Below, one piece after another: positions 3,985-39,472 of a DNA stretch of 39,670 nucleotides (positions within the stretch are counted from its first letter, which is position 1; the number at the start of each line of letters is the position of its first letter). The DNA is taken from assembly GCA_944388575.1 (NCBI GenBank), contig CALXJF010000012.1:1-39670 (forward strand), written 5' to 3'. The notes below the pieces were generated by a model. The model made no database searches, was not told the DNA's origin, and saw only the letters and a list, made by a program, of their open reading frames with translations. This DNA comes from an uncultured Clostridia bacterium (GTDB taxonomy: Bacteria > Bacillota > Clostridia > TANB77 > CAG-465). Position numbers and translations under genes: made by a program.

Positions 3985-4029
3985 AAAATAAATTTTTGTA
4001 TTATTAAGGTGGTGAAATTAAATAATACA

Positions 4030-4175
4030 TATAATAGCGCTAAGGTTAAAAAAGACTAACGAGGATGATAGTTGTCGAATTTTTAAGCGGATGCTATCAC
4101 GGTATTTTTAGTATCGTTATACATATTACAAAAGTAAAATCTAAAATTACTACAAAAAATATGTAGTCTAAAAAA
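4030..4175 (+). ncRNA. glmS ribozyme (GlcN6P-responsive self-cleaving leader)
   Basis: The leader carries the hallmark segments of the glmS ribozyme in order: the cleavage context ATAGCGC (predicted cut between A4036 and G4037), the core segment AACGAGGATGATAG at about 4058, TTGTCGAA, GCGGATGCTATCACGG at 4087, and a closing hairpin CTACAAAAAATATGTAG near 4151-4170. By family knowledge this RNA uses glucosamine-6-phosphate as a cofactor to cut itself, after which the downstream mRNA is degraded, giving feedback on GlmS. It ends about 50 bp before the glmS start, which has a GGAGG site. Confidence 0.9.
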
Positions 4176-12062: not shown

Positions 12063-13862
12063 TTATTTTACCTTTACATTGTCATTTCCAAAAGCAATTT
12101 GCAATCTATCTAATGTTTCTTTAGATAGATTTAACCAATTATCTTTATTTAATAATTTTAATTTATTTGTTCCATCATAAAAAATGTATACAGGAATATT
12201 ACCTTTAAAGTCATTTTCTAAGTTATTAATAAAAGTAATAACCCTATCTTCTAAATCTAATTTATCCTTGGGAAGTCTTATATATATTTTTTTATTAACT
12301 GTAATCATTTCAACATTTGATATTAATATCTTAGCCTTCTCATTTTCTTTTAAATTAATTTTACCTGTTACTTTTAATATATTATCTTTTTTTAGTATAT
12401 CTGAAAATCTCAAATAAACATTGGGAAAAATAACAGCTTCTATACTACCATACATATCTTCAATTTCTGCAAACATCATCTGTTTATTAGCTTTAGTAGT
12501 AAGTATTTTGGTTTTTGTCAGTATTCCACAATAAACTTGAGTTGTTTCATCATAGGAAACTTTTTCTTCTCTAAATTCATTATCTATAATTTCTTCATTT
12601 TGGACAACTAAATCTTTACTAGTTACTGTTGAATTCTTTAAAATATATTGCGAATATTCATCAAGTGGATGTCCAGAAACATATAAACCTAACATTTCTT
12701 TTTCCATATCTAAAAGTTCTCTTTTAGTAGGTTGTTTACCACATTTTTTTATTACAACACTACTTGATTTTATGTCTTCTTGGATATCAAATAAATTTAT
12801 TTGATTTATATAATTATTCTTTTTTTCTTGAGTAACGTTATCAACAATTGCCTCGTAACTTTCAAGTAAATCATAGCGATTTATTCCTTTTTCAATTTCA
12901 TCAAAAGCACCTGCCATTATCAAGCTTTCTATACATTTTTTATTTACTTGTTCTCCTGAGACTCTTTGGCAAAAATCAACAAAACTTGCATACCTTCCCT
13001 GTCTTTTTCTATCTTCTACTATTTCTTTAATAGCATTTTCTCCCACATTTTTTATAGATACAAGTGCAAATCTTATCTTTTTATTAATTACTGCAAATTT
13101 AGCATAACTCTCATTAATATCTGGTTTTAGTACCTCTATATTCATAGCTTTACATTCAGCAATATACTCTGGTATTTTATTTAAATTTCCAATCATACTA
13201 TTCATAAGAGCTGCCATGAATTCATGAGGATAATGTGCTTTTAAATAAGCCGTTTGATATGCAATTACCGCATAGGCAGCTGCATGAGATTTATTAAAAG
13301 CATATTTTGCAAATTCTGCCATCTCATCAAATATTTTATTTGCACTTACTTCATCAATATTATTTTTAATAGCACCTTTTACAAATACTTCTCTTTCTTT
13401 TGCCATTACATCCAATTTTTTCTTTCCCATAGCACGTCTAACCAAATCTGCTCTTCCAAGGCTATATCCTGCCAAATCTCTAAATATTTGCATTACTTGT
13501 TCTTGATAAACCATACATCCATATGTAACATTTAAAATTGGTTTTAAAGCCTCATGAGTATAAATTATATCATCTTTGTTATTTTTATTTCTTATATATC
13601 TTGGAATTTGATCCATTGGACCAGGTCTATATAACGATATCATGACAATAATATCTTCTAAACAATCTGGTTGCATTTTCATCATCATTTGCCTAAAACC
13701 TTTACTTTCCATTTGAAATATACCTGTTGTTTTTCCTTCACACAGCATCTTAAATGTTTTGGTGTCATTCATATCTTTTCCAAAATCTATTCTAATTCCA
13801 TGTATTTTTTCTACTAATTTTAATGCATCAGATATAACAGTCAACGTTCTAAGTCCTAAAAA
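12063..13862 (-). CDS. dnaE: DNA polymerase III alpha subunit, 3' exon
   Basis: The second coding part of dnaE after the group II intron. The true sequence begins FLGLRTLTVISDALKLV (13862); residues before this in the open frame (MPTVFVTYHY) are intron-encoded and not part of DnaE. It includes the rest of the palm and the fingers (GIFQMESKGF, DIIVMISLYRPGPM, YGCMVYQEQVM, RRAMGKKK, FNKSHAAAYAVIAYQTAYLK), the helix-hairpin-helix part and an OB-fold near the C-terminus (VYCGILTKTKILTTKANK, MMFAEIEDMYG). The 599 residues here plus 549 from the 5' exon give 1148, normal for DnaE. Without splicing this piece has no good start and lacks the PHP domain and the catalytic aspartates. Confidence 0.93.
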   Translation of the reverse strand, partial: FLGLRTLTVISDALKLVEKIHGIRIDFGKDMNDTKTFKMLCEGKTTGIFQMESKGFRQMMMKMQPDCLEDIIVMISLYRPGPMDQIPRYIRNKNNKDDIIYTHEALKPILNVTYGCMVYQEQVMQIFRDLAGYSLGRADLVRRAMGKKKLDVMAKEREVFVKGAIKNNIDEVSANKIFDEMAEFAKYAFNKSHAAAYAVIAYQTAYLKAHYPHEFMAALMNSMIGNLNKIPEYIAECKAMNIEVLKPDINESYAKFAVINKKIRFALVSIKNVGENAIKEIVEDRKRQGRYASFVDFCQRVSGEQVNKKCIESLIMAGAFDEIEKGINRYDLLESYEAIVDNVTQEKKNNYINQINLFDIQEDIKSSSVVIKKCGKQPTKRELLDMEKEMLGLYVSGHPLDEYSQYILKNSTVTSKDLVVQNEEIIDNEFREEKVSYDETTQVYCGILTKTKILTTKANKQMMFAEIEDMYGSIEAVIFPNVYLRFSDILKKDNILKVTGKINLKENEKAKILISNVEMITVNKKIYIRLPKDKLDLEDRVITFINNLENDFKGNIPVYIFYDGTNKLKLLNKDNWLNLSKETLDRLQIAFGNDNVKVK

Positions 13863-13959
13863 ATAGTGATAGGTAACGAACACCGTCGGCATTATCTGTT
13901 ACGGGTCGTTTTCCCCCACTTCACACCATACGTGCGACTTTCAACGCATACGGCGTTCC
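13863..13959 (-). ncRNA. Group II intron domains V and VI
   Basis: On the minus strand, the 34-nt domain V is visible at about 13922-13958: GCCGTATGCG, GAAA-type loop, GTCGCACGTATGG, close to the consensus catalytic hairpin. Domain VI fills the rest to 13863, with an unpaired A at position -8 as the likely lariat branch point. Confidence 0.85.
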
Positions 13960-14039
13960 ACCAAGTATAGTAGTCTTCGGTAAACTACTTTCGGGTTATG
14001 TCAGATTTTGTTCAAGTTTTAACCAGTTTAGTGTTTTGG

Positions 14040-15899
14040 TTATTCTAGTTTCTTACGATATTTCGCAAGTTTTTTCATTGTTTTTTCTGACAAATCTTCA
14101 GGTTTTGAATCATTATGAATCAGCTGATGACAGTATTTGTGTACTGTGATAAGGTTTTTGACCTTATTCCTTTGATTGCTTGGTAATTTCGGTTCGACAT
14201 GGTGGAAATGCGCATCATTGGGTTCAACATATCCTCCACAGATTTTGCATTCCCCTTTGTCTCTATTGTATGTGTATGGTCGGTTCATGAAGTATTCGAA
14301 GTCATAGAGTGGATGTTTGCTCATTCTTATGTACAATGCATGAGCATTGGAATTCACTTCGTCCGTTCGGACTTGTAATCCTTTTCTACGCATTCTCTTG
14401 TTATAAATCTCTCTTCCTTCTGGAGTGTATGGATTTTCAGCTTGATTTTTGCATATTGGATTTTCCCATTTTGCAAAATTTATATCTGTAATTCCAATCC
14501 ACATTCCTTTATATTCGACTGCTGGGATATTGGCTTTGTGCCCTTTGTGCAGCCCAATCAGATTTGAGACTTGGTTTGCTCTGACCCATTTACCACCATA
14601 ACGTTTCAGTGATTTGTATGCTGTATATTTCAGTAGCCATGCATACTTTCTCACAATAACGCTAATCTGGTCACACATATTATAATAATTGATAAGTCCT
14701 ACAATAATCGAATTAACTCGCACTATGTTTTGAATCAGTCTGTCTCTGTCCAGTGTGGAAGTTTTCCTTATATAGAACAGTTCACGACTTAGCTCTTTCA
14801 TCTTGCGGTCAAATCTTTCTTTGTCTGGAGAAACTCTATTAACCAGCATTCCGTTTTTGTTATACATCTTGATTTCTACACCAAGAAACTTAATCGGCCT
14901 GCTGCACACATTCGTTATCAGTGCTTTTTCATCTGATAATTCCAGCTTCAAGGCTTCTTTCAGATACCTTTTGGCTTTATATTTCAGACGTTCAGCGGCT
15001 TTTTTACTATCAGTCAAGATAACCCAGTCATCCGCATACCTGATGAAGTAACAGGTTTTAAGATTACTATGATTTCTCATAGCAGTCAATTCACCGTCTC
15101 TTCTTGAATGTGTTTTTTTGAGTCTCTTTCTCTCAAAATCACCTGTCATATAATTATCGAATCGATTTAAGTAAATGTTTGCTAATAGTGGAGAAATGAT
15201 ACCACCTTGCGGTGTTCCTAATTCACTTTTTACGCATTCATCCATCACTCCAGCTCTGAGCATTTGCTTAATGATACTTAGTACTCTTCTGTCTCGAATT
15301 CCAATATTCCATAGACTTTTTATCATTACATTGTGGTCAATGTTATCAAAAAATCCTTTGATATCTCCTTCGACTGCCCAGTAGCATTTGGATGTCCAGT
15401 TAATGCGCTTGATTCTTGCTATTGCCATGTCCGCCGACCTCATGGGCCTAAAGCCGTATGAGTGTTCAAAGAACTGTGCTTCTGCGATTGGCTCCAGAAT
15501 ATTTCTTACGCATTCCTGGATAATTCTATCGATAATCGTTGGTATTCCAAGTGGTCTTTTTTCGGACTTACCTGGTTTCGGTATCCATACTCTTCGCACC
15601 ATTTCAGGTTTGTAACAGTACAATCTATTTCTGACTTCCTGTAGAACCTCATCATAGTTTTTATTTAAATAATCATCCATTGTTTTCTGGTCAATTCCAG
15701 CAGTGTTGCTGCCTTTGTTTCCTTTAATTTTATGGATTGCAGAAACTATATTTGGTTCTGATGCAATAATTTCTAGGATACCTGTGAAATTACTTTGCTT
15801 TCTTTCATCATAATTTTTCTTTGCCTTCAAATAAATATTTTGTAAGAGTTCGTTGAGTTCCTTTTCTGTTATAGGAACTTTATTAAGTTTTGTCCCCAT
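14040..15899 (-). CDS. ltrA: Group II intron reverse transcriptase/maturase (RT, maturase, HNH)
   Basis: A protein of about 619 residues of the LtrA type. The reverse transcriptase part begins around residue 60 (GIDQKTMDDYL, WIPKPGKSEKRPLGIPTIIDRIIQ, YGFRP) and has LGTPQGGIISPLLANIYL and the catalytic FIRYADDWVIL (YADD near residue 290). The maturase/thumb region follows, then an HNH endonuclease at the C-terminus (CKICGGYVEP, DAHFHHVEPK, NLITVHKYCHQLIH). All functional parts look complete, so the intron should be both self-mobile and able to help its own splicing. I take ATG 15899, 9 nt after GGGGG; an in-frame TTG at 15905 is closer to that site. Base composition is richer in G+C than the surrounding dnaE. 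Confidence 0.95.
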   Translation of the reverse strand: MGTKLNKVPITEKELNELLQNIYLKAKKNYDERKQSNFTGILEIIASEPNIVSAIHKIKGNKGSNTAGIDQKTMDDYLNKNYDEVLQEVRNRLYCYKPEMVRRVWIPKPGKSEKRPLGIPTIIDRIIQECVRNILEPIAEAQFFEHSYGFRPMRSADMAIARIKRINWTSKCYWAVEGDIKGFFDNIDHNVMIKSLWNIGIRDRRVLSIIKQMLRAGVMDECVKSELGTPQGGIISPLLANIYLNRFDNYMTGDFERKRLKKTHSRRDGELTAMRNHSNLKTCYFIRYADDWVILTDSKKAAERLKYKAKRYLKEALKLELSDEKALITNVCSRPIKFLGVEIKMYNKNGMLVNRVSPDKERFDRKMKELSRELFYIRKTSTLDRDRLIQNIVRVNSIIVGLINYYNMCDQISVIVRKYAWLLKYTAYKSLKRYGGKWVRANQVSNLIGLHKGHKANIPAVEYKGMWIGITDINFAKWENPICKNQAENPYTPEGREIYNKRMRRKGLQVRTDEVNSNAHALYIRMSKHPLYDFEYFMNRPYTYNRDKGECKICGGYVEPNDAHFHHVEPKLPSNQRNKVKNLITVHKYCHQLIHNDSKPEDLSEKTMKKLAKYRKKLE

Positions 15900-16679
15900 A
15901 GGCAATCACCCCCTATGGTTAGTTCGTTTCGCTCAACGGCTACCTTAATAATTGAACATTCTTACATAACCCTATTCTTGGCTATGCCCCTTCGCTTCAC
16001 AGACATTACTCTGCTTCAACACTACTACGGGCTGCTGCCACTCGAATTCACAAGTCATTTCCTACTTGCTAGAAACATCGACACTTAAACATCTTATCAT
16101 TTTCTTTCGAGCTTCAATTGTTCCATTGATTTTATCCTTTTATTATAGCAACTTAGCTGCCGCCTTTAACCCGTAAGCTATTCTTTCTCCCGTTAGCTGA
16201 ATGGAATCAGAACGCATATCCTTTACTGGATACACACCGTATTCGCAATGGACAATACGAATACCGCAACTTAAATCCCTACAGGGATGACCCAACTTTC
16301 GTCGGGGTCGTTAAATTACGAGCCTTTCATACGGCGGTTCCTGGTGAGTCAGCATATTGCATTTTTCAGGACCCCCGACCTACTTCGTCTTCTTATAACC
16401 TACTCTATATTTTCTAACGGGCGGGCTCTAGCCACTTTTGTACCAGCTATACTTATATATTTCGTTTACTTAGAATTCTTTTCAGCCGACTTTACCGAGC
16501 TTCATACCTTTCAGTTTTAAGACTGATTGGCATGTCGGAGTCTCAGGGATTAGAGTATCAGCATTTACTCTATAGTTGGAATTTCACCAACCAAATCAAA
16601 TCAATAGTTAAGCAGATTCTATTCTGCTCCGCTAACTTGTTTCCATTTCTAGAGTGTTTCATTAGCGAACAATTCGCAC

Positions 16680-18326
16680 ATCCATTTTAAGTAATCCAAG
16701 CTCTTCTAAAGTTGTCATTGTATATTGCGTAGAAATAATATTTTGACTTTCATATAATGGTACATAATTTACAACTTCTTCCTTAGTTATAACAACTCCT
16801 GCTGCATGAGTTGAAGCGTGTCTAACCATTCCTTCTGCCTTTTTAGCTAAATCTATTATCTGTTTTACTTGTTCATCTGTTTCATATAAATCCTTTAAAC
16901 CTTTACTTATATCTAAAGCCTTATTTATCGTCATCTTTAATTCGTGCGGTATTAATTTAGCTATTACATCAGCCTTTTGATATGAGACATCCAAAACACG
17001 AGCAATATCTCTAACTGCTGCACGAGCCGCCATAGTTCCAAATGTTATAATTTGAGCTACATGGTTCTGGCCATATTTTCTTGCTACATAGTCAATCACT
17101 TCTTGACGTCTTTCATAACAAAAATCTATATCAAAATCAGGCATACTTATTCTTTCTGGATTTAGAAAACGTTCAAATATTAAATTAAACTTTAAAGGAT
17201 CTATATCAGTTATTCCAATTAAATATGCAGCTATTGAGCCTGCACCACTTCCTCTACCTGGTCCAACAGATATACCAACTGACCTTGCATAATTAATATA
17301 ATCTTGAACTATCAGAAAATAATCTATATATCCCATTTTATCTATTACACTAATTTCATACTCAAGTCTATCAGTAACCTCTTTACTATAATTTTTTCCG
17401 TATCTACTTTCTATTCCACCATAACAAAGGTTCCTAAAATATTCTAAATGAGAAATATTTCCTGGAATTTTAAATTCCGGTAATATTGTCTTTCCAAATT
17501 CGAACTCAACGTTACACATATCTGCAATTTTTACTGTATTTTCTATTGCCTCAGGTATATTTTTAAAAGCTTCTTCCTCCTCTTTAGCTGATTTGACATA
17601 AAATTCATTTGTCTTAAAAGTCATCCTATCTGGGTCATTTATTGTTTTTCTAGTTCCTATACAAAGTAGTACTTCATGAAAATCATAATCCTCTTGATTT
17701 AAATAATGACAATCATTAGTAGCTACTAAACCAATTCCAAACTCCTTTGAAAACTGTATTAATTGTTGATTTACAAGAATTTGCTCCCTTAATTTATTAT
17801 CTTGAACTTCTAAAAAATATCTTTCTTTTCCAAATATATCGATAAATTCTTTTATGGTCTCTTTAGCTCCATTAATATTTGTATTTATAATTTGAGTTGC
17901 TACCTTTCCAGCTAAGCAAGCACTCAAACATATTAAACCCTCATTATATTCTCTTAAAATATCCATATCTATACGAGGCTTATAATAGAAACCTTCTGTA
18001 TAACCAGCAGAACATAACTTTACTAAATTATGATATCCAATATTATTCATTGCAAGTAATATTAAATGATTTGGTTCTGTATCTACTTTTCCCTGCTTAT
18101 CAAATCTACTACGCGGTGCAACATAAACTTCACACCCTATAATAGGTTTTATTCCTTCAGCTTTACATTTTTTATAAAATTCAATAGCACCAAACATATT
18201 ACCATGATCTGTTATAGCAACAGACTTCATTCCTAACTCTTTTACCTTTTTTACTAAATCATTTATTCGTATAGCACCATCTAATAAACTATATTCTGTA
18301 TGCACATGTAAATGTACAAAATCCAT
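16680..18326 (-). CDS. dnaE: DNA polymerase III alpha subunit, 5' exon
   Basis: The first 549 codons of dnaE. It holds the PHP domain (residues 1-210; HLHVHTEYSLLDG, AITDHGNM, IGCEVYVAP) and the first half of the polymerase core, including GPGRGSGAGSIAAYLIG and MPDFDIDFCYERR, whose two Asp residues are catalytic. It ends LGLLKMD; by alignment to E. coli DnaE this last Asp is the third catalytic residue. The open frame continues into the intron for five codons (VRIVR) before a stop, so unspliced mRNA would give a truncated polymerase. DnaE in Firmicutes works beside PolC in lagging-strand synthesis and is normally essential. I start at ATG 18326, preceded by GGTGAGG; nine further in-frame codons upstream lack a site. 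Confidence 0.95.
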
Positions 18327-36434: not shown

Positions 36435-38138
36435 TTACAACTTAAATATATCCATTTTTTGATTTATTTGCATATTATAAAGTGCCGTTTTCAAACAATT
36501 TACAACTTCAGTATGTCCTTTTTGGGATGCCCACTTTATTGCAAAATTATCTTCTGCAGAAGGATTTACTCTCTCATCTGCAAGCAATAATCTTACAATC
36601 TCAACATGACCATTTTTGGAGGCATACCTTATTGAAAAATTATTTCCTGAAGAGGGATCTACTCTCTCATCTTTTAGTAATAATTTTACAACTTCAGTAT
36701 GTCCTTTTTGGGATGCCCACTTTATTGCAAAATTATCTTCTGCAGAGGGATCTACCCTCTTATCTTCAAGTAACAGTTTTACAACTTCAGTATGTCCATT
36801 TTGGGATGCCCACTTTATTGCGGAATTATCTTCTGCAGAGGGATCTACCCTCTTATCTTCAAGTAACAGTTTTACAACTTCAGTATGTCCATTTTGGGAT
36901 GCCCACTTTATTGCATGATTATCATATGCAGAGGGATCTACTCGCCCATCTTCAAGTAACAGTTTTACAACTTTAGTATGTCCATTTGCTGAGGCACTGC
37001 TTATTGCATTACTATTTCTTGCAGAGGGATCTACTCGTCCATCTTCAAGTAACAGTTTTACAACTTCAGTATGTCCATTTTCTGAGGCATTCCTTATTGC
37101 ATAATTATTTTTTGCAGAGGGATCTACTCTCTCATCTTTTAGTAACAGTTTTACAACTTCAATATGTCCGTTTGCTGATGCATGACTTATTGCATAATTA
37201 TCTTCTACAGAGGGATCTACTCGCCCATCTTTAAGTAATAGTTTTACAACTTTAGTATGACCATTTTCTGAGGCACATGCTATTGCAAAATTATTATCTG
37301 CAGAGGGATCTACCCTCTTATCTTCAAGTAATAGTTTTACAACTTCAGTATATCCATTTTCTGAGGCAAACTTTATAGCAAAATTATCAAATGCAGAGGG
37401 ATCTATTTTCTCATCTGCAAGTAATAATCTTACAACTTCAGCATGTCCATTTTCTGAGGTATACCTTATTGCATAATTATTTTCTGCCGAGGGATCTACC
37501 CTCTCATCTTCAAGTAATAGTTTTACAACTTCAGTGTGTCCGTTTTTCGAGGCATACCTTATTGCAGAATTATCTTCTGCAGAAGGATCTACTCTCTCAT
37601 CTTCAAGTAATAATCTTACAACTTCAGCATGTCCTTTTTCTGAGGCATACCTTATTGCATAATCATCATATGCAGAAGGATCTACTCTCTCATCTTTTAG
37701 TAACAATTTTACAACTTCAGTATGTCCATTTTGGGATGCATATCTTATTGCAAAATTATTGCTTACAGAAGGATCTACTCGTCCATCTTCAAGTAACAGT
37801 TTTACAACTTCAGCATGGCCATTTTTTGAAGCAAATACTATTGCATAATTATTTTCTGCCGAGGGATCTACCCGTACATCTTCAAGTAACAGTTTTACAA
37901 TTTCAACATGTCCATTTTCTGATGCATACTTTATTGCAAAATTATTTCTTGCCGAGGGATCTACTCGTCCATCTTCAAGTAACAATTCTACAAATTCTAA
38001 AAGTCCTCGTTCACATGCCCATCCAAAAACATAATTATTATCTATTAAATTGGCTTCCCGATTTTCCGAGAGTGACATTTTTACAATAGTTAATAAATAC
38101 TCTTTCAAATCATTTTCGTTTTTAAAAATACTTTGCAT
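36435..38138 (-). CDS. Ankyrin-repeat protein, 17 units of 31 residues
   Basis: A 567-residue protein made of an N-terminal cap of about 40 residues and about 17 tandem ankyrin-like units. The unit is 31 residues (93 bp; for example, successive GAGGGATCT motifs at 36745 and 36838), two shorter than the canonical 33, with pattern VDPSAxxNxAIxxASxNGHxEVVKLLLED. The variable positions change from unit to unit, as in binding surfaces. The first unit is capped by NNYVFGWACERGLLEFVELL, and the last loses the LLL motif. No signal peptide, membrane helix or catalytic domain is present, so it is probably a cytoplasmic binding protein. AGGAGG is 8 nt before the ATG. A shorter paralogue with the same N-terminus and promoter follows upstream at 38543-39472. 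Partner unknown. Confidence 0.88.
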   Translation of the reverse strand: MQSIFKNENDLKEYLLTIVKMSLSENREANLIDNNYVFGWACERGLLEFVELLLEDGRVDPSARNNFAIKYASENGHVEIVKLLLEDVRVDPSAENNYAIVFASKNGHAEVVKLLLEDGRVDPSVSNNFAIRYASQNGHTEVVKLLLKDERVDPSAYDDYAIRYASEKGHAEVVRLLLEDERVDPSAEDNSAIRYASKNGHTEVVKLLLEDERVDPSAENNYAIRYTSENGHAEVVRLLLADEKIDPSAFDNFAIKFASENGYTEVVKLLLEDKRVDPSADNNFAIACASENGHTKVVKLLLKDGRVDPSVEDNYAISHASANGHIEVVKLLLKDERVDPSAKNNYAIRNASENGHTEVVKLLLEDGRVDPSARNSNAISSASANGHTKVVKLLLEDGRVDPSAYDNHAIKWASQNGHTEVVKLLLEDKRVDPSAEDNSAIKWASQNGHTEVVKLLLEDKRVDPSAEDNFAIKWASQKGHTEVVKLLLKDERVDPSSGNNFSIRYASKNGHVEIVRLLLADERVNPSAEDNFAIKWASQKGHTEVVNCLKTALYNMQINQKMDIFKL

Positions 38139-38542: not shown

Positions 38543-39472
38543 TTATTGAATGTTCCTTAACTCTAATGCTAGGAGTTTTACAATTTCAATATGTCCGTTT
38601 TTCGAGGCATACCTTATTGCAGAATTATCTTCTGCAAAGGGATCTACTCTCTTATCTGCAAGTAACAATTTTACAACTTCAACATGTCCGTTTGCTGATG
38701 CATGCCTTATTGAGAAATTAATTCCTGCCGAGGGATCTACCCTCTTATCTTCAAGTAACAGTTTTACAACTTCATCATGACCATTTTCTGATGCCCACTT
38801 TATAGCATGATTATCATATGCAGAGGGATCTACTCGCCCATCTTCAAGTAACAGTTTTACAACTTTAGTATGTCCTTTTGCTGAGGCACTGCTTATTGCA
38901 TTACTATTTCTTACAGAGGGATCTACCCTCTTATCTTCAAGTAACAGTTTTACAACTTCATCATGTCCTTTTCTTGAGGCAAATACTATTGCAAAATTAT
39001 CATCTGCTGATGGATCTACTCTTCCATCTGCAAGTAACAATTTTACAACTTCAATATGTCCGTTTGCTGATGCATGCCTTATTGCATAATTATCATATGC
39101 AGAAGGATCTACCCTCTTATCTGCAAGTAACAATTTTGCAACTTCAACATGTCCGTTTGCTGATGCATGCCTTATTGCAAAATTATCATCTGCTGATGGA
39201 TCTACTCTTCCATCTGCAAGTAACAGTTTTACAACTTCAACATATCCATTTTGGGATGCACATCTTATTGCAAAATTATTTTCTGCCGAGGGATCTATCC
39301 CCTCATTTACAAGTAATATTCTTACAAATTCTAAAAGTCCTCGTTCACATGCCCATTTAAAAACATAATTATTATCTACTAAATAGCCTTCATTATTTTC
39401 TGAGAGTGCCATTTTTAGAATATTAAATAAATACTCTTTCAAATCATTTTCGTTTTTAAAAATACTTTGCAT
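38543..39472 (-). CDS. Ankyrin-repeat protein, 9 units of 31 residues (paralogue)
   Basis: A 309-residue paralogue of the neighbouring gene: a shared N-terminus (MQSIFKNENDLKEYL), the same cap (NNYVFKWACERGLLEFV) and about nine 31-residue ankyrin-like units, ending in a degenerate last unit (KLLALELRNIQ). Units 5 and 6 (NSNAISSASAKGHTKVV, DNHAIKW) are nearly identical to units 11 and 12 of the longer protein, pointing to exchange between the genes. Positions facing a partner differ elsewhere. No signal peptide or enzyme domain. AGGAGG is 8 nt before the ATG and the promoter is full consensus. Probably a cytoplasmic binding protein with its own partner; function unknown. Confidence 0.88.
   Translation of the reverse strand: MQSIFKNENDLKEYLFNILKMALSENNEGYLVDNNYVFKWACERGLLEFVRILLVNEGIDPSAENNFAIRCASQNGYVEVVKLLLADGRVDPSADDNFAIRHASANGHVEVAKLLLADKRVDPSAYDNYAIRHASANGHIEVVKLLLADGRVDPSADDNFAIVFASRKGHDEVVKLLLEDKRVDPSVRNSNAISSASAKGHTKVVKLLLEDGRVDPSAYDNHAIKWASENGHDEVVKLLLEDKRVDPSAGINFSIRHASANGHVEVVKLLLADKRVDPFAEDNSAIRYASKNGHIEIVKLLALELRNIQ

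Follow-up and report, generated by a model that had tools for sequence, protein, structure and literature searches.

The dnaE gene in the stretch of DNA analysed here (the window, 39,670 nucleotides from an uncultured Clostridia bacterium) is split between the codons for KMD and FLGLRT by a complete group II intron of 2817 nt, 16679..13863 on the minus strand. The element is very probably an intact mobile group II intron from a lineage that specialises in the K-M-D/F-L-G-L-R codon junction of Clostridia dnaE. Relatives occupy the same nucleotide of dnaE in nine other genomes, and the intron and its hosts have different histories.

The intron and the interrupted dnaE

The features under discussion are these:

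16680..18326, minus strand: dnaE 5' exon, 549 codons from ATG, ending ...LLKMD; NF005298 positions 2-549; Pfam PHP and DNA_pol3_alpha
16680..16686, minus strand: IBS1 at the exon end, AATGGAT, covering the Met and Asp codons and the third base of the Lys codon; pairs 7/7 with EBS1
13863..16679, minus strand: group II intron, 2817 nt, GTGCG...CACTAT; RF02004 and RF00029; insertion point common to nine relatives
16364..16612, minus strand: domain I core, RF02004, 58.2 bits, E 5e-10
16247..16253, minus strand: EBS1 guide GUCCAUU, invariant across nine introns; pairs 7/7 with every host's exon
16238..16265, minus strand: EBS1 hairpin, 8-bp stem and 12-nt loop; pairing in 90% of cells, with covariation
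14040..15899, minus strand: intron-encoded protein (IEP), 619 aa, reverse transcriptase with YADD, maturase and HNH endonuclease; TIGR04416, RVT_1, HNH
13863..13958, minus strand: domains V-VI, RF00029, 48.2 bits, ending at the splice site
12063..13862, minus strand: dnaE 3' exon, 599 codons, starting FLGLRTLT; NF005298 positions 551-1151; finger, HHH and OB domains

The initial annotation, made from the sequence alone, had proposed a group II intron lying in the sense direction within dnaE, with ends GTGCG...CACTAT, whose removal would give KMD/FLGLRTLT and a DnaE of 1148 residues. Its coordinates are exact, and the intron and both exons are all on the minus strand. Read on that strand, the junctions (16680/16679 and 13863/13862) are ...CTTAAAATGGAT / GTGCGAATTG ... 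CCTATCACTAT / TTTTTAGGACTTAGA; the intron begins with GTGCG at 16679 and finishes with CACTAT at 13863, which fits the boundary rule of 5' GUGYG and 3' AY. The Rfam model group-II-D1D4-5 (RF02004) matches 16612-16364 with 58.2 bits (cut-off 34.5, E 5e-10), and the D5-D6 model Intron_gpII (RF00029) matches 13958-13863 with 48.2 bits (cut-off 40), its terminus coinciding with the proposed 3' splice site. The domain V triad is CGC, in contrast to the AGC of the Rfam consensus. The window's genome contains one RF00029 match and one copy of the intron protein; a partial match on a separate contig, 30% identical, is not a second IEP copy.

The two dnaE exons abut, as seen from their matches to NF005298 (DnaE, 1151 positions), which cover 2-549 and 551-1151. 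Joining them gives a single open frame of 549 + 599 = 1148 residues from the ATG at 18326. (In the residue numbers used below, the insertion falls after residue 558, counted from an upstream TTG; this is 549 from the ATG.) By residue count along an alignment to 2hpi, the aspartate preceding the intron aligns with D618 of Thermus aquaticus pol III alpha, which we take to be equivalent to E. coli D555, the third catalytic aspartate of DnaE. This agrees with the earlier placement of the insertion directly after a catalytic aspartate, and the likening of the target to the conserved DnaE motifs chosen by inteins also holds.

The IEP frame is open and matches TIGR04416 (group II reverse transcriptase/maturase, 319 bits) in addition to RVT_1 and HNH. 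Among solved structures the best match is LtrA (ML), but it is distant. The YADD active site is kept in the nine full-length IEPs that we compared, and purifying selection on the protein is strong (dN 0.047, dS 0.89, dN/dS about 0.05 between the window and its nearest relative, L008, from Faecalimonas umbilicata).

In outline, the dnaE pre-mRNA would be transcribed with the intron inside, and an unspliced message would yield a DnaE that stops five residues into the intron (...KMD-VRIVR-stop). The IEP would be translated from within domain IV and, acting as a maturase, would aid splicing of the RNA, which would restore full-length DnaE. The excised RNA-protein particle would then locate dnaE alleles that lack the intron, in other strains as well, through pairing of EBS1 with the Lys-Met-Asp codons, and would enter them by reverse splicing followed by target-primed reverse transcription, for which the HNH domain would nick the opposite strand. 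Splicing, dependence on the maturase and retrohoming are here what the known biology of group II introns would lead one to expect.

DnaE is essential in Bacillus subtilis. The window's genome (1.47 Mb, 96% complete) encodes one DnaE, the interrupted copy, and one PolC, and each of the nine relatives' genomes likewise has one DnaE, interrupted, and one PolC. An uninterrupted second dnaE, which the initial annotation had named as one finding that would count against it, was absent from all of these genomes. Judging from the interruption of the sole dnaE, growth of the cell may depend on splicing of the intron, although PolC is also present.

It might be that the intron splices poorly or not at all, leaving dnaE effectively split or knocked out and the cell leaning on PolC. 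PolC is indeed present in every carrier, and the 3' exon has an ATG-led frame of its own from 13892. We nevertheless consider this very unlikely, as the exons are open and the frame is restored exactly in every carrier for which both sides of the junction are present, the IEP is strongly purified by selection, two of the carriers are isolate genomes, and the gene is essential in B. subtilis.

Relatives at the same site and their mode of spread

Among 84,980 species genomes, a scan with the IEP as query detected nine relatives at 67-92% identity; this number is a lower bound, since the scan was seeded by exact short peptides. With the joined DnaE as a tblastn query, dnaE proved to be interrupted after residue 558 at all nine loci, so the search for the same insertion in other genomes that the initial annotation had proposed was positive in nine. 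The nucleotide junction common to the relatives is AARATGGAY / GTGCG ... / TTY, the comparison for one of them (L016) being made at the 3' end. The carriers are Faecalimonas umbilicata DSM 103426, Lachnospiraceae bacterium TWA4, a Cellulosilyticum, a Eubacterium, one Ruthenibacterium-type Oscillospiraceae, other Lachnospiraceae and two less defined bins; all of the named carriers are Clostridia. Since all nine relatives sit at the same spot in dnaE in distantly related Clostridia, the element behaves like a single-site specialist parasite.

The nine full-length dnaE-site IEPs are monophyletic (support 99/100), apart from relatives of about 45% identity discussed below. In all 36 carrier pairs the identity of the IEPs exceeds that of the DnaE proteins: between the window and L008 the IEPs are 91.7% identical and the DnaE proteins 57.6%, and between L011 and L012 the values are 91.6% and 61.2%. 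Approximately unbiased (AU) tests show the conflict from both sides, as the DnaE data reject a grouping of the window with L008 (p 0.00013) and the IEP data reject a clade of L008, L009, L013 and L015 (p 6e-6). At the nucleotide level, the 88% identity of the intron drops sharply at the exons, which are about 60% identical, and on both sides the 60-nt exon bins adjoining the junction show no greater similarity than the outer bins; thus the flanks did not travel with the intron. From the conflict between the IEP and DnaE trees, the sharp edge of similarity at the exons and the dN/dS of about 0.05, we conclude that the intron spreads alone. Retrohoming is well established for group II introns, and the horizontal spread of the intron, and the intron only, between families of Clostridia is the pattern that it predicts. 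The earlier suggestion that this target would let the intron pass between distant hosts is borne out by nine relatives from several families at one dnaE nucleotide, with conflicting intron and host trees.

We considered the possibility that the intron moved as a passenger during horizontal exchange or recombination of dnaE alleles, with no retrohoming involved, as the identity of gene and site in every carrier might suggest. The sharp drop from intron to exon identity directly at the junction, the absence of a co-converted tract in the 60-nt bins and the rejection of the intron grouping by the DnaE tree make this highly improbable, and for the window and L008 passenger transfer is refuted, since their exon flanks are not alike. 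That the intron is ancient in Clostridia and was inherited vertically with many losses, as the restriction of named carriers to that class and the conserved site would allow, is scarcely credible when IEPs are 92% identical in hosts whose DnaE proteins are 58% identical, when each data set rejects the grouping of the other, and when the sampled congeners of the window lack a close IEP.

The element is very rare. One of 391 genomes drawn from the class is a carrier, and in the families of L008 (397 genomes) and L014 (298 genomes) the carriers are the seed genomes alone. This rarity implies that mobility is infrequent or that carriers tend to vanish. Of 245 class genomes, 200 have the empty target, AARATGGAYTTYYTNGGNYT, which is missing from the window's genome; that the element is so rare when its target is so widely available points to little transfer, to a fitness cost or to both.

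The initial annotation had taken the raised G+C of the intron as a sign of recent arrival. This fits the host in the window (38% in the intron, 28% in the dnaE exons), but it is not general: the IEP has 33-43% G+C across all hosts, and is below the exons in seven of the eight other hosts measured and equal to them in L009.

Several of the related introns have unusual structures. In L012 (4429-4494), about 60 nt of extra sequence at the intron 3' end includes a second domain-VI-like copy (CTAACAGATAATGCTGAGGAT) ahead of exon 2, which is reminiscent, in appearance alone, of the 3' extensions described for Bacillus introns (PMC3261151). L013 (3683-3753) and L015 (3706-3776) carry, near position 55, a duplicate of intron segment 209-279. 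Four introns have additional sequence downstream of the IEP stop and ahead of domain V (L008:6355-6657, L009:6355-6864, L010:6360-6701 and L015:6355-6670), containing differing small frames, mostly with an RBS-like sequence and a hydrophobic N-terminus; one of these frames matches DUF3139, and that of L008 has no obvious start codon. These are apparent cargo genes. The dnaE of F. umbilicata contains a second group II intron (L008:7400-8719) between YAFNK and SHAAAYA, where joining AATAAAT to CTCATGCT gives back N-K-S-H-A. With an IEP cut down to about 132 aa, this intron would require a maturase in trans; a longer protein, 62% identical, is found at G516:C37:5142.

Pairing of the guide with the target codons

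The EBS1 assignment comes from an alignment of the nine 5' ribozyme regions, in which the loop ATTGTCCATT is invariant yet carried on a variable stem. Of the stem's cells 90% are paired, five of its eight pairs show compensatory changes, and its covariation score was matched by none of 500 shuffles and lies above all slid controls. The guide GUCCAUU pairs 7/7 with exon positions -7 to -1 (R-AUG-GAY) in all nine hosts; it is the sole aligned 7-mer that does so, and the sole full 7-nt match within the 780-nt 5' part of the intron. By chance, a single shuffled sequence would contain about 0.7 such 7-nt matches, and therefore the case for EBS1 lies in its invariance, its covarying hairpin and its pairing in nine hosts. 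The pairing check proposed in the initial annotation thus succeeded for EBS1 and IBS1, but not for EBS2, as a scan over all offsets yielded no segment with pairing in each of the nine introns.

The exon positions that vary among hosts are -7 and -1, the third bases of the Lys and Asp codons. These bases face U and G in the guide, so that all four synonymous spellings pair, with wobble. When we enumerated the 16 base choices at the two outer EBS1 positions, only G...U gave 7/7 pairing with the four synonymous Lys-Met-Asp targets. The Asp codon is GAT in six of nine hosts, for which the Watson-Crick partner would be A, yet the G of EBS1 is invariant. We put at even odds the idea that selection has shaped EBS1 to recognise an amino-acid motif instead of one DNA sequence, which would permit homing throughout Clostridia irrespective of the codons that a host prefers. 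That codon tolerance was selected for is a reasonable supposition but short of proof, because the nine introns are of common descent. Homing endonucleases tolerate variation at synonymous sites, and a codon-tolerant EBS1 would be the RNA counterpart. KFD-type sites, as in E. coli, pair 5/7 with EBS1, hence the range should be confined to bacteria with KMD.

Relation to other introns and to inteins

Relatives of the IEP at about 45% identity sit in other genes, several of them of conjugation type. Going by gene names read from the translated flanks, the sites are in a VirD4-like coupling protein at VTDPKGEL (L024), a VirB4-like ATPase (L019), a DNA methyltransferase beside PPYW (L018), a helicase at DEAHNYKN (L005) and an SPFH protein (L006). 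The introns in L024, L019, L018 and L005 resemble the dnaE introns in having a related IEP, the same boundary sequences, sense orientation and, in several cases, insertion at recognisable motifs; they differ in that their targets are typical of mobile elements and that they fall outside the dnaE clade. A further related intron (L007, G117:C21; IEP 41% identical) apparently splits another reverse transcriptase gene near its catalytic region. No relative of the dnaE intron was found in viral contigs, and IEP matches were below 45% identity in phage records and below 48% in plasmids, so there is no direct evidence of a phage or plasmid vector for the dnaE lineage.

Mechanistically this is a canonical mobile group II intron, and what is new is a rare lineage dedicated to dnaE with a codon-tolerant guide. 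It shares with Ll.LtrB-type introns the reverse transcriptase-maturase-HNH architecture and IEP domains, the GUGCG...AU ends, EBS1/IBS1 targeting, sense insertion within a gene and relatives in conjugation-type genes. Ll.LtrB-type introns, however, target relaxase and other mobile-element genes, whereas the dnaE lineage targets a chromosomal and normally essential replication gene, and the whole lineage stays at one site. Most bacterial group II introns lie outside housekeeping genes, and those reported within such genes are mainly in cyanobacteria and in the CL and ML lineages (PMC4424553). As with those introns, expression of the host gene would require splicing; unlike them, the dnaE introns form a clade of ten at one nucleotide across several families of Clostridia. 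Among the open-access papers searched, none described a group II intron in dnaE. The inteins of DnaE (the cyanobacterial split inteins and others) are likewise selfish, lie in conserved DnaE sequence and are removed without a scar, although an intein is removed as protein and the intron as RNA, and inteins move by a homing endonuclease and repair whereas the dnaE intron is expected to use reverse splicing.

In every known carrier, then, one lineage occupies a single codon position in the catalytic site of a replication polymerase, and it has crossed families without its flanks. F. umbilicata DSM 103426, with two introns in one dnaE, offers a cultured system for studying life with a core replication gene that would need splicing. 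The wider question is whether RNA-guided selfish elements evolve toward targets defined by protein motifs.

Elsewhere in the window, two neighbouring minus-strand ORFs (36435-38138 and 38543-39472) consist of 93-bp repeats that encode ankyrin repeats, and a glmS ribozyme/riboswitch lies at 4025-4175 on the plus strand.
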